Source: Haloarcula hispanica ATCC 33960
GTDB lineage: Archaea > Halobacteriota > Halobacteria > Halobacteriales > Haloarculaceae
DNA length: 64,000 nucleotides
Direction of reading: 5' to 3'
Assembly (NCBI RefSeq): GCF_000223905.1
Contig: NC_015948.1
Span: 2,604,001 to 2,668,000, forward strand
Below the pieces are notes generated by a model. That model saw nothing but the letters and a program-made list of their open reading frames with translations, was not told the DNA's origin and made no database searches. Shown piece by piece: positions 44,841 through 48,435 of the stretch (positions are counted from its first letter, which is position 1; each line of letters starts with the position of its first letter). The translations under genes and the position numbers were made by a program.

Positions 44841-45653
44841 TCACTCCATGGTATCCGGACCGTCCGCGTCCAGCCGTTCGGCGGCCCCCGCGACGGTCAG
44901 TGGCACGTCGTCCGTCCGGCCCTCGAACAGTCTGACGACTTGTGGCGGGCGCAGGTCACAGTCCCGCAACAGGTCAGTATCAGTCAGGATACGGCGGGTG
45001 GGCCCCCTCGCGGCAATCGTGCCGGTATCGTCGAGCAACAGGACCCGGCCCGCGACGTGCGGGACGAGTTCGGTGTCCGGCGTCGAGACGACGAGCGTGA
45101 CGCCCGCGGCCGCGAGTTCGTCCAGCAGGTCGAGAATCGTCTCCCGGTTCGCGGCGTCGACGTTGCTCACCGGTTCATCGAGCAACAGTACGTCCGGTTC
45201 GACGGTGAGCGCGCTGGCGAGAGCAGCCCGGCGCTGTTCACCGCCGCTGAGCCGGAACGGCGGCTTCGACAGGAGGCCGTCGAGGTCGAGCCGGGCCGCG
45301 ACTCGCTCGACGCGGCGGTCAACCTCCGCGCGCTCGCAGTCGAGTTGCGCCGGCCCGTAGGCGAGGTCTTCGCGAACGGTCGGGTTGAACAGGTAGTCCG
45401 CAGGGTTCTGCGTGAGGACGCTCAGACGGCTGCGGACGGTGTCGGCGTCGGTCGTCTCCCCGAAGTACCGGACCCGCCCGCCATCGGGGTCGACCAGCCC
45501 GCCCAGCAGTTCCAGCAGCGTCGACTTGCCAGCCCCGTTCGGGCCGAGCAGCGCTACGCGGTCGCCGCGCTCGATGGACACATCGACGCCGTCGACGGCC
45601 AGCGTTTCATCGGGGTATGCGTACCGGAGGTCAGTCGCCTCGATAGCAGTCAC
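44841..45653 (-). CDS. cbiO: ECF/cobalt-nickel transporter ATPase (CbiO/NikO-like)
   Basis: Energises an energy-coupling-factor importer for nickel or cobalt. The 270-residue protein has Walker A LLGPNGAGKSTLLELLGG, Q-loop LTQNPADYLF, signature RLSGGEQRRAALASAL and Walker B VLLLDEPVSNVD. The start is a GTG at 45653: it overlaps the cbiQ stop as GTGA, and the family begins with TAIEATDLRYAYPDETLAV. A long upstream frame with another codon frame runs inside cbiQ and is not coding. It is the last gene of the cbiM operon. Confidence 0.92.
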   Translation of the reverse strand: MTAIEATDLRYAYPDETLAVDGVDVSIERGDRVALLGPNGAGKSTLLELLGGLVDPDGGRVRYFGETTDADTVRSRLSVLTQNPADYLFNPTVREDLAYGPAQLDCERAEVDRRVERVAARLDLDGLLSKPPFRLSGGEQRRAALASALTVEPDVLLLDEPVSNVDAANRETILDLLDELAAAGVTLVVSTPDTELVPHVAGRVLLLDDTGTIAARGPTRRILTDTDLLRDCDLRPPQVVRLFEGRTDDVPLTVAGAAERLDADGPDTME

Positions 45654-46441
45654 GCGACCACCACCACGACGGCGAGCGCGACGACCAGTCCGAAGGCGAG
45701 GTCGGCCCGCCCGAGCGGTTCCCGGGGCTGTGCCGGCGTCGAGCCAGTCCCGCCACGAGCGCGAGCGGCCCGCTGGACCCGCTCGCCGCGTTCCAGACTG
45801 CGGACGAGAAACGAGCCCACGAAGTTCCCCGAGTCGCGCCAGTTCCGGCGGAGGCTCGGCTCGGCGATGGTTCGACTCCGGCGAGCCCGGACCATGCGTT
45901 CGAGTTCGGCGAAAAAGAGGAGCAGATAGCGGTACGTGATTCCGAGCAGCGAGACGGCAATCGACGGGACCCGGAGCCGGCGAAACGCCGCCAAGAGGTC
46001 GGCGAAGCGGGTGGTCAACAGCAGGACAGACAGGAAGCCGACACACGCGGTTACGCGGACGGCGAACGTAAGCACGTAGTCGACGCCAGCGGCCGAGAGC
46101 GGGAGCGAGCCAAGCGAGGGACCACCCATCAGGATGGCCTGTGGCGCGACGACGACGAACGCGAACGCCGGCGGGCCGGTCAGCCGCCCCAGGAAAGTAC
46201 GGATAGGTATCCGAGAAATGGCCGCAAGCACCGAAGCGAGGAGCGCGAGCGCGCTGACGACTGCCAGCGTCCGCTGTGTCACGGTAAGGGCGACGAGCGT
46301 CGCGACGCCGACGAGCTTGACCGTCGGCGTGACGGCCTGGAGAAACCCGTCCCGGTCCGGCAGGTCCTCAGCGAGCAGGAACCACTGGGCGCTGGCCGCG
46401 ATGGCCGCAACGGTCCGGTCGAGCAGGTCTCTGCCGGACAT
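45650..46441 (-). CDS. cbiQ: ECF/cobalt-nickel transporter membrane protein (CbiQ/EcfT-like)
   Basis: Transmembrane coupling subunit of the nickel or cobalt importer, 263 residues with four to five membrane segments. The two Ala-Arg-type coupling motifs that contact the ATPase are visible as ELERMVRARRSRTIAE and RGERVQRAARARGGTG. It overlaps cbiO by four bases and lies three bases from the PDGLE gene. The last 20 residues are a hydrophobic helix (AFGLVVALAVVVVVA). Confidence 0.9.
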   Translation of the reverse strand: MSGRDLLDRTVAAIAASAQWFLLAEDLPDRDGFLQAVTPTVKLVGVATLVALTVTQRTLAVVSALALLASVLAAISRIPIRTFLGRLTGPPAFAFVVVAPQAILMGGPSLGSLPLSAAGVDYVLTFAVRVTACVGFLSVLLLTTRFADLLAAFRRLRVPSIAVSLLGITYRYLLLFFAELERMVRARRSRTIAEPSLRRNWRDSGNFVGSFLVRSLERGERVQRAARARGGTGSTPAQPREPLGRADLAFGLVVALAVVVVVA

Positions 46442-46444
46442 CAG

Positions 46445-46759
46445 CTACTGCCGCTGGTCGGTATCCGCCCCGAGCAGGCGACCGATGCCGGCACCGAGGA
46501 GGAGCGTCAGCGCCGTCCCGACGACGGCCGACACGAACGTTCCGGTTGCACCACCGAGACCGGGGACGCCGTAGTCCGGGAACAGCGCGGTACCGACGGC
46601 GGTGGCGTGTTCCGTCGCATCGGTCGCCTCGGCGGCGTTTTCGAGCGGTTCGGCGTAGCCGACCTGACCGGCCGCCCATCCGAACACCGGCGCGAGCAAT
46701 GTCAGGACCAGCAGCGCGGCGAGGGCACGAGGTAGCCAGTCGGGAAGATCCCGGGCCAT
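46445..46759 (-). CDS. PDGLE-domain protein (CbiN/NikN-like) of the metal importer
   Basis: A 104-residue protein with an N-terminal and a C-terminal membrane helix and an extracytoplasmic loop containing ALFPDYGVPG, the PDxxxPG version of the PDGLE signature. PDGLE proteins replace CbiN or NikN next to CbiM in many nickel and cobalt importers. The ATG at 46759 overlaps the stop of cbiM by one base; a GTG at 46762 is possible. It is needed with CbiM for transport activity in related systems. Confidence 0.85.
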   Translation of the reverse strand: MARDLPDWLPRALAALLVLTLLAPVFGWAAGQVGYAEPLENAAEATDATEHATAVGTALFPDYGVPGLGGATGTFVSAVVGTALTLLLGAGIGRLLGADTDQRQ

Positions 46760-47397
46760 CACGCACTCACCTCCGGGGCGGCGTTCGGTCGCAGGTCGGG
46801 GCGAGCGCGGGCCAGATAGCGGTAGACCAAGGCGGTGATGGCCCCCTCAATCAGGCCCAACGCGAGGTGCCCGACGCCCATTATCGACAGCGTCGTCAGC
46901 AACTGGTACTGGAACGCAGAGGAAAGGCCCAGCTGAAGGGCGGCGGTCAGCGCGCCGGCCGTGATTCCTAACCACCCCGCGACGAAGGCCGCGCGGAATT
47001 CACCGTAAGGGACGAGCAGGCGATAGATGGCATAGCCGACGTACACCTCGACGACAGCCATGTTGAACACGTTCGCGCCAAGCACCACGAGCCCGCCGTC
47101 ACCGAAGACGAGCGCCTGAATCGTGACGACAGTCGCGACACAGAGCGCGCCCAGGTGCGGACCGAGGAGAATCGCCGCGAACGCGCCCCCGACGAAGTGG
47201 GCGCTGGTGCCCCCGGGAATTGGCCAGTCAAGCATCTGTGCGGCGAAGATACTCGCTGCGACGACACCGAGCAGCGGCGCGCGCGCATCGGAAATCTCAC
47301 CGTTGACACGCTTGGCAGCGACGCTCAGAACGACGACCGCAAGCGCACCGAACAGCAACGCAAGCGGTAGATCGATATATCCGTCGGGAATGTGCAT
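46759..47397 (-). CDS. cbiM: Energy-coupling factor substrate-binding membrane protein (CbiM/NikM-like)
   Basis: Substrate-specific subunit of the importer, 212 residues with about seven helices. The N-terminus MHIPDGYIDLPLALLF is the metal-binding hallmark (His 2), and GTSAHFVGGAFAAILLG carries the second conserved His. Nickel and cobalt members are hard to separate from sequence; the divergent nikR gene and GTATTAC-type elements in its promoter favour nickel. First gene of an operon with the PDGLE protein, cbiQ and cbiO. Confidence 0.92.
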   Translation of the reverse strand: MHIPDGYIDLPLALLFGALAVVVLSVAAKRVNGEISDARAPLLGVVAASIFAAQMLDWPIPGGTSAHFVGGAFAAILLGPHLGALCVATVVTIQALVFGDGGLVVLGANVFNMAVVEVYVGYAIYRLLVPYGEFRAAFVAGWLGITAGALTAALQLGLSSAFQYQLLTTLSIMGVGHLALGLIEGAITALVYRYLARARPDLRPNAAPEVSA

Positions 47398-47422: not shown

Positions 47423-47473
47423 GTAATAATACTTTTTCATCGGGCAGTATTACTGCCGACGAGTGAGTATTAC
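47423..47473. promoter_or_regulatory. Three GTATTAC-type elements between nikR and the nickel importer operon
   Basis: Site 1, GTAATAATAC (47423-47432), lies on the cbiM TATA element (minus-strand GTATTATTAC, about 27 bases from the start). Site 2, GTATTAC (47447-47453), lies in the perfect odd palindrome GCAGTATTACTGC. Site 3, GTATTAC (47467-47473), is exactly 20 bases further and 10 bases upstream of the nikR TATA (47484-47494). Bacterial NikR binds inverted GTATGA-type half sites, so these are candidates for NikR binding and nickel repression. Confidence 0.6.
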
Positions 47474-47517
47474 CGAAGCCCGGATATCCATATGCGAGCC
47501 CCTCTCTATCGACACAC

Positions 47518-47928
47518 ATGAGTGAGGACCTCGACCGGATCAGCCTGACACTCCCCTCGTCGATGGTCGACCGACTCGACGGTATCGTCGACGACTGGGA
47601 GTACGCGAGCCGGTCGGAAGCCATTCGTGACTCGCTACGTGACTTCTTTGCGACCTACGAGTGGGAGTCCGGTGACGAAAAACACCACCACGGGACCATC
47701 GTCATCGTCCACGACCACCACGTCTCGGGCATCGCAGACGAGCTTCAGACGGTCCAACACGAGATGGCCGACATCATCACCTCCGTCCAGCACATTCATC
47801 TCTCCCACGACACCTGCATGGAGACCCTGGTCGTCGAGGGCGCGGGCGGCAATATCACGGAGCTAGCCAACCGTCTCCGGGCGATTGGTGGTGTCCAACA
47901 GGTCAAGGTCGTCGTCGTGGACGAGTGA
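47518..47928 (+). CDS. nikR: Nickel-responsive regulator NikR
   Basis: Nickel-sensing repressor, 136 residues. The ribbon-helix-helix DNA-binding domain occupies the first 45 residues (DRISLTLPSSMVDRLDGIVD and SRSEAIRDSLRDFF). The C-terminal ACT-like domain keeps all four nickel ligands in the spacing of Escherichia coli NikR: His 81, His 92, His 94 and Cys 100 (QHIHLSHDTC). An extra His cluster (KHHHGT and HDHH) precedes them. It is divergent from the importer operon it probably represses, and a TATA at 47484-47494 makes it leaderless. Confidence 0.93.
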   Translation: MSEDLDRISLTLPSSMVDRLDGIVDDWEYASRSEAIRDSLRDFFATYEWESGDEKHHHGTIVIVHDHHVSGIADELQTVQHEMADIITSVQHIHLSHDTCMETLVVEGAGGNITELANRLRAIGGVQQVKVVVVDE

Positions 47929-48008: not shown

Positions 48009-48083
48009 TGGGCCCTGCCGGATTTGAACCAGCGCTCAATCGGTTATGAGCCGATCGCTTTAACCAGACTAAGCTAAGGGCCC
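48009..48083 (-). tRNA. tRNA with CAU anticodon, probably tRNA-Ile2 (AUA decoding)
   Basis: A 75-base cloverleaf on the minus strand. Acceptor stem GGGCCCT pairs with AGGGCCC, discriminator A. Anticodon stem ATCGG/CCGAT carries loop CTCATAA (anticodon CAT). T-arm GCTGG-TTCAAAT-CCGGC closes well. The GGGCCC acceptor with A73 is typical of isoleucine tRNAs, so this is probably Ile2, whose C34 becomes agmatidine (Haloarcula marismortui is the type case), rather than Met. No intron and no encoded CCA. Confidence 0.9.
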
Positions 48084-48267
48084 TCAGAATGGTGTTGATG
48101 AGTCCGCATCTTTAGCCTGTCGGGTTGGAGTGGAGGGGTTTCGGAGATGCAAGCGAGACAGGACAGAGCGATCTATGCATCGTTTGTGTGGACATTGTTC
48201 AGCGGCCGAACGCCGACGTTACAGCGACTGACTCGCAGCACTCGTCGATTTGCGAGTGAAAGAACGA

Positions 48268-48340
48268 CGCCACCGCCAGGGCTCGAACCTGGGACAACCT
48301 GGGTAACAACCAGGTGCTCTACCAACTGAGCTACGGCGGC
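48268..48340 (-). tRNA. tRNA-Asn(GTT)
   Basis: A 73-base cloverleaf on the minus strand. Acceptor GCCGCCG pairs with CGGTGGC (one G-T pair), discriminator G. D-arm GCTC/GAGC, anticodon stem CCTGG/CCAGG with loop TTGTTAC (anticodon GTT), T-arm CCAGG-TTCGAGC-CCTGG. No intron and no encoded CCA. It lies 184 bases from the CAU tRNA, and its 5' end is 95 bases from the divergent cca gene. Confidence 0.97.
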
Positions 48341-48435
48341 GCGAACGCATCCAATCATTGCCAGAGTTGGTAATTAGGGCTTTCGTTTCCAGTCGGCATC
48401 GACACGCTTTCACGCACTTGTGCGCAAGCGGCGGT

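Follow-up and report, generated by a model that had tools for sequence, protein, structure and literature searches.

A conserved pair of half-sites as the likely NikR operator of a divergent metal importer in Haloarcula hispanica and its relatives

In Haloarcula hispanica ATCC 33960, the gene for a NikR-type regulator lies back to back with a set of genes resembling those of a nickel or cobalt importer, and several short elements of the GTATTAC type are found in the gap between them. This arrangement raises the question of which elements make up an operator, whether NikR is the protein that reads it and which of the two genes it controls. An initial annotation of the window, the whole 64,000-nucleotide stretch of DNA that was analysed, had proposed a single three-site array acting on both genes. 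Here, we compare the locus with its counterparts in other haloarchaea and argue, on the basis of sequence comparison, that NikR very probably recognizes, as its own operator, a site in the promoter of the adjacent ECF-type metal importer genes cbiM-PDGLE-cbiQ-cbiO. The gene run (47397 down to 44841, minus strand) is divergent from nikR, and 120 bp separate the two start codons. The genes concerned are the following.

47518..47928, plus strand: nikR, 136 amino acids, ribbon-helix-helix (RHH) plus NikR_C; ATG at 47518, stop ending at 47928
46759..47397, minus strand: cbiM/nikM, membrane, substrate-specific component of an ECF-type Ni/Co importer; Pfam CbiM 210.3 bits, NCBIfam CbiM models all below cut-off; ATG at 47397
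46445..46762, minus strand: small membrane protein with a PDGLE domain (CbiN/NikN-like); Pfam PDGLE 41.1 bits, CbiN models weak and below cut-off
45650..46441, minus strand: cbiQ, transmembrane T component; Pfam CbiQ 101.5 bits, TIGR02454 139.1 against a cut-off of 111.8
44841..45653, minus strand: cbiO, ATPase; Pfam ABC_tran 103.9 bits, best NCBIfam models ECF/cobalt ATPases, below cut-off

The nikR product joins an RHH DNA-binding domain to a NikR_C domain, the combination by which the NikR family is recognized; a Pfam profile search gave 88.8 bits for NikR_C (cut-off 22) and 28.8 bits for RHH_1 (cut-off 20.5). The protein passes the NCBIfam models NF002169 (140, cut-off 111), NF003381 (113.9, cut-off 105) and NF002815 (86.8, cut-off 83) and misses TIGR02793 (74.5 against 175.45) and NF001884 (87.7 against 119). 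Its best solved relative by sequence is NikR from Pyrococcus horikoshii (E = 1.7e-26). The four nickel ligands that had been noted at the correct spacing bear up in this alignment: H81, H92, H94 and C100, which we take to be the square-planar nickel ligands of the family, are spaced H-x10-H-x-H-x5-C, equal to the aligned P. horikoshii protein. Together with R7, S9 and T11 on the N-terminal strand, presumably the DNA contacts by analogy to E. coli NikR, they are unchanged in 46 of 46 orthologues (tblastn E < 1e-20 among loci L001-L049). Genes for tRNA-Met and tRNA-Asn, both on the minus strand, lie downstream of nikR (48009-48083 and 48266-48341 of the window).

On the other side of the gap, all components of a Cbi/NikMNQO importer (M, N or PDGLE, Q and O) occur in one run; the cbiO start at 45653 was picked by homology, the mechanical open reading frame being longer. 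A whole-genome search returned this CbiM as the single match. The metal specificity is read from context, namely the neighbouring nikR, the one CbiM and a urease alpha encoded elsewhere in the genome, and the Ni or Co specificity of such importers has likewise been assigned partly by neighbourhood, according to the available part of PMC2667541. As the only CbiM of the genome, the importer may carry cobalt. We consider it very unlikely that cobalt rather than nickel import is controlled here, with NikR acting as a cobalt sensor. The family models matched, all below cut-off, are indeed named for CbiM, and no other CbiM is encoded; however, the ligand set is kept in all 46 orthologues, the genome encodes urease alpha, and one orthologue (L010, 2394-4411) adjoins genes for urease beta and a NicO-like protein. 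It also bears on the identity of the metal that ZnuA-like proteins are encoded next to nikR at two haloarchaeal loci (L022 and L024). For a NikR homologue that adjoins ZnuABC in methanogens, a response to zinc has been suggested (PMC3087415, in the part available).

The three GTATTAC-type elements reported for the nikR/cbiM gap were all found in place, and we designate them S1 to S3.

47426..47432, minus strand: S1, ATAATAC, proximal half-site, GTATTAT on the cbiM strand; lies within GTAATAATAC (47423-47432) and is also the likely cbiM TATA box
47447..47453, plus strand: S2, GTATTAC, distal half-site, family form GTAWTAC
47467..47473, plus strand: S3, GTATTAC, third half-site, 20 bp from S2 (N13)
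47426..47453, no strand: proposed core NikR operator, S1-N14-S2, -56 to -29 from the cbiM ATG

Measured from start to start, S1 and S2 are 21 bp apart, and S2 and S3 are separated by exactly 20 bp, as had been described. The motif GTATTAC by itself is unremarkable in the window (three seen, 1.09 expected, at least three in 7 of 100 shuffles), and S1 resembles a TATA box at an appropriate distance from the cbiM ATG. Both facts would suit a reading in which S1 is merely the cbiM TATA box and S2 and S3 are chance or other promoter elements, with no NikR operator at all, which we regard as extremely unlikely. ATAATAC-N14-GTATTAC with up to two mismatches occurs at this site alone on both strands of the window (0.00 expected, 100 shuffles), and the evidence against that reading comes from the relatives.

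The initial annotation had staked its proposal partly on conservation in other haloarchaea, and the operator is indeed present there: at 40 of the 40 fetched loci where cbiM diverges from nikR, the two start codons flank the N14 pair. These are all loci with cbiM among L001-L047, divergent in every case, with some species present twice. On the cbiM strand, its form across loci is RTAWTAY-N14-RTATTAT. When upstream regions at least 85% alike were removed (ungapped comparison, 75 nt), a non-redundant set of 26 loci was obtained, all of which carry the pair; among operator-bearing loci, identity to the window NikR reaches down to 41%. Of the spacings from 5 to 25 tested on this set, 14 occurs at 26 loci, 13 at five, 23 at two, 19 at one and the rest at none. 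At all 26 loci, 24-29 nt separate the end of the proximal half-site from the cbiM ATG, and the TATTAT of this half-site is invariant and follows A-rich, BRE-like bases. Many haloarchaeal transcripts lack a leader and have their TATA box near -26 to -30; S1 overlaps the likely importer TATA box, in line with the earlier proposal for one of the elements. A TATA role could explain the proximal half-site, but not the distal half-site, in which four of seven columns are invariant around an A/T centre and which is held at exactly N14 in all 26 loci despite the variable mid-spacer. The locus shows the sequence features by which an operator of this kind is recognized: paired 7-bp half-sites at a fixed spacing, conserved, at a Ni/Co importer promoter.

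A survey of 141 genomes of the class found the exact ATAATAC-N14-RTAWTAY in 26. It is present at cbiM in 21 of 21 genomes with nikR divergent from cbiM (the 30 fetched loci showed 22 such genomes, 21 of them within the 141) and elsewhere in five of the remaining 120, which have no divergent nikR-cbiM among those loci. The matches came to 31 rows (30 sites, one counted on both strands) against eight for the reversed control. Of these sites, 21 are at cbiM, four precede a Peripla_BP_2 gene and five lie elsewhere (L075, L080, L081, L082 and L084), without a match to a cbiM, nikR or Peripla_BP_2 protein. CbiM is encoded in 45 of the 141 genomes (44 over cut-off), and no operator was found at any of nine checked CbiM loci without a window-type nikR; eight of these are distant (26-33%), with only approximate starts, and L107 (53%) is the one close homologue.

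The four sites before Peripla_BP_2 genes are in G139, G088, G050 and G069, where 28-29 nt separate the operator from a downstream gene for a substrate-binding protein. The G139 and G069 proteins match Pfam Peripla_BP_2, and those of G088 and G050 are 65% identical to the G139 protein. These importer loci (L058, L070, L085, L151, L154 and L155) belong to four genomes of the window's family, and a FecCD-like permease gene comes next in L151 and L154 (by eye). Every one of the four genomes encodes a window-type NikR, and this recurrence of the pair before an unlinked transporter gene again argues against a TATA box alone. In G069, nikR lies elsewhere in the genome, with no operator within its 5-kb stretch (L152), so that in this genome the operator accompanies the transporter gene rather than nikR. 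The family models searched gave the transporter no specific assignment; we regard this Peripla_BP_2-type ABC importer as a candidate nickel (or nickel-chelate) importer.

Among the 46 NikR loci, the operator was not found at three, none with cbiM in the fetched stretch: L010, the urease beta and NicO-like locus mentioned above; L024, where the neighbours of nikR are a gene for a ZnuA-like protein and a urease beta gene, the latter identified by eye; and L039. A site lies between nikR and the ZnuA-like protein gene at L022 and before nikR at L023. At L041, nikR is divergent from the gene for a protein like the Peripla_BP_2 type (34% identity), and the site is slightly changed.

In the H. hispanica genome itself, RTAWTAC-N14-GTAWTAY has one exact match, at nikR/cbiM. 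A wider regulon was rejected, as allowing one mismatch yields a single further site, no better than the reversed control (one per strand), and the inverted repeat GTATTAC-N0-30-GTAATAC was likewise discarded as a regulon signature, with no exact match in the genome. The pattern RTAWTAY-N13-RTAWTAY matches S2+S3 exactly; its one-mismatch sites number 12 against eight in the control, and the extra sites are thus taken as chance. A search for GTATTAC pairs at other nickel genes had been suggested as a check, their presence being a supporting rather than strictly defining property of an operator, but the exact operator is unique in this genome and urease has none: the 15 kb around its single urease alpha gene contain no N14 match even when two mismatches are allowed, for which reason urease under the same control was rejected. 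One N13 match in this region (one mismatch, 0.10 expected, chance level) lies about 6.6 kb from urease alpha.

The same genome encodes three NikR_C proteins, and in Halobacterium NRC-1 cbiN, cbiM and cbiQ are predicted targets of SirR/DtxR-type regulation (PMC3600143, in the text available). The operator might accordingly be read by a NikR paralogue or by a SirR/DtxR-type repressor, which seems to us very improbable indeed. RTAWTAY-N13/14-RTAWTAY was found at neither paralogue locus (L050, L051, L054 and L055), and G020, G021 and G120, three other genomes with the cysK-side paralogue type, hold no exact operator; all 21 exact-pattern cbiM operators adjoin a window-type NikR. The second NikR-like gene (L055 4871-6269; G000:C3 ~1088870-1090268; NikR_C 61.5 bits) is divergent from that of a His-rich NicO-like protein, which falls just below the Pfam NicO cut-off and has a nickel/cobalt efflux model, below cut-off, as its best NCBIfam match; the pair possibly forms a separate efflux circuit. 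The third NikR-type regulator (L054 5776-6195; G000:C3 ~1775275-1775694) lies near a cysteine synthase-like gene (by eye) and has relatives (59-82%) at loci of four other genomes (L045, L048, L049 and L153). The TATA of this cysK-side paralogue and the stretch just ahead of its ATG carry TTAATAC-like boxes, a hint that it may regulate its own expression; by eye, over four loci, such boxes occur at L054 and partly at L048, and L049 and L045 are without the same form.

With NikR retained as the most probable reader of S1 and S2, the part played by S3 is to be considered, for which two further features are needed.

47443..47457, no strand: perfect palindrome GGCAGTATTACTGCC around S2, of odd length with T at its centre; flanks not conserved
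47488..47495, plus strand: likely nikR TATA region CCATATGC, an invariant 8-nt block in the lineage

In the non-redundant set of 26, five loci have S3, and these belong to a single Haloarcula lineage. Within the 30-locus fetch it occurs in eight of eight genomes of the window's genus; L006 and L009, two records titled Haloarcula, are without it. In an alignment of the lineage (12 distinct intergenic sequences from 15 loci), four invariant blocks of at least seven bases stand out: TAATAATACTTTTTCATCG, which comprises S1 and BRE-like bases; CAGTATTA, which is S2; GAGTATTACCGAAGCCC, a 17-nt block containing S3; and CCATATGC. Several relatives, by eye, read CATATTA at the same distance from the nikR ATG as the likely nikR TATA. 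S3 is probably functional in its lineage, on evidence that is only moderate because the aligned sequences are close relatives, with 80 of 130 columns invariant. The perfect palindrome described around one element exists, but appears incidental: only its CAGTATTA portion is invariant in the 12 sequences, and the 15-bp palindrome was rejected as a functional unit.

The initial proposal, in which one three-site array controls both genes and nikR is truly autoregulated through S3, is in our judgement doubtful. In its favour, the S3 block does not vary among the 12 distinct sequences of the lineage, and delta-proteobacterial NikR sites use N13 spacing, the distance between S2 and S3. Nevertheless, S3 is missing at 21 of the 26 non-redundant loci, about 15 nt separate its end from the likely nikR TATA downstream, and S2 could presumably not serve two tetramers simultaneously. 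The conserved operator is S1+S2, and a single three-site array as the ancestral unit is not upheld. Repression of nikR through S2+S3 is possible, although the distance of S3 from the likely nikR TATA means that direct overlap does not indicate it.

From these patterns we infer NikR binding and its nickel dependence, the TATA and BRE positions, repression and any role of S3, which may be combined as follows. A nickel-bound NikR tetramer would place one RHH dimer on S1 and the other on S2, two helical turns apart on the same face of the DNA. The 7-bp half-site is nearly symmetric (GTA-W-TAC), which would fit the two-fold symmetry of an RHH dimer; half-site orientation would therefore be unimportant, here as in the delta-proteobacterial predictions. 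Since S1 would be the importer TATA box and the spacer would hold the BRE, NikR binding should exclude TBP/TFB and shut off uptake. In the one Haloarcula lineage, S3 would form with S2 a second pair, which overlaps the first and lies upstream of the nikR promoter. It is conceivable, but on balance improbable, that the two overlapping operators there share S2 such that one NikR tetramer makes an either/or choice between S1+S2 and S2+S3. If true, this would be a built-in switch coupling nickel uptake (S1+S2) to the repressor level (S2+S3), later grafted onto a more ancient two-site operator in which an archaeal TATA box serves as the proximal half-site.

Taken together, these results provide a testable NikR operator for haloarchaea, with TATA/BRE occlusion as its probable logic and S3 as a lineage-restricted addition. 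They also predict a second NikR target in some relatives, the Peripla_BP_2-type ABC importer, and with it a possible nickel role for that transporter. We found no description of a haloarchaeal NikR operator in the openly licensed literature, in so far as its text was available, which is weak evidence of absence.

How does this operator compare with known NikR systems? The NikR of P. horikoshii (PDB 2bj1 and related) has the same ligand positions as the window protein and differs in having Arg/Ser/Ser where the latter has R7/S9/T11. The E. coli regulator belongs to the same family and also uses two half-sites about two turns apart at a nickel importer promoter, but its operator at nikABCDE, GTATGA-N16-TCATAC (PMC7055735, available part), has the half-site GTATGA instead of GTAWTAC and serves a different transporter family. 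The claim that the half-site is unlike the bacterial GTATGA thus stands against E. coli, but not against the delta-proteobacteria, in which the sites predicted upstream of nikMNQO read GTGTTAC-N13/14-GTAACAC, one with a GTaTTAC half-site (PMC545781, as far as its text was available). These closely resemble the haloarchaeal sites in their 7-bp half-sites, spacer of 13-14, Cbi/NikMNQO-type importer and reversible half-site orientation (<-->). The differences, within the same available text, are threefold: the haloarchaeal half-site GTAWTAC is more symmetric, its proximal copy likely doubles as an archaeal TATA box, and a third half-site is present in one Haloarcula lineage. In methanogens, which share an archaeal NikR and a NikMNQO-type importer with the haloarchaea, NikR sites were predicted for eight organisms with nikMNQO/NikR; the accessible portion of PMC10617489 credits them to Rodionov et al. 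2006. Among 26 non-haloarchaeal NikR loci of the phylum, GTAATAC-N13-GTATTAC occurs at two (0.08 expected, mononucleotide shuffles) and a looser variant at one; the looser pattern gave four matches against 1.96 expected (largest six), so that this third site taken alone is not above chance. All three sites belong to one genus and are found directly ahead of nikR, and downstream are cbiQ/cbiO-like genes; the two exact ones, from two genomes, are at 1919-1945 in L142 and L143. By these comparisons, the operator of the haloarchaea seems to be a local form of a NikR operator type that is already known.
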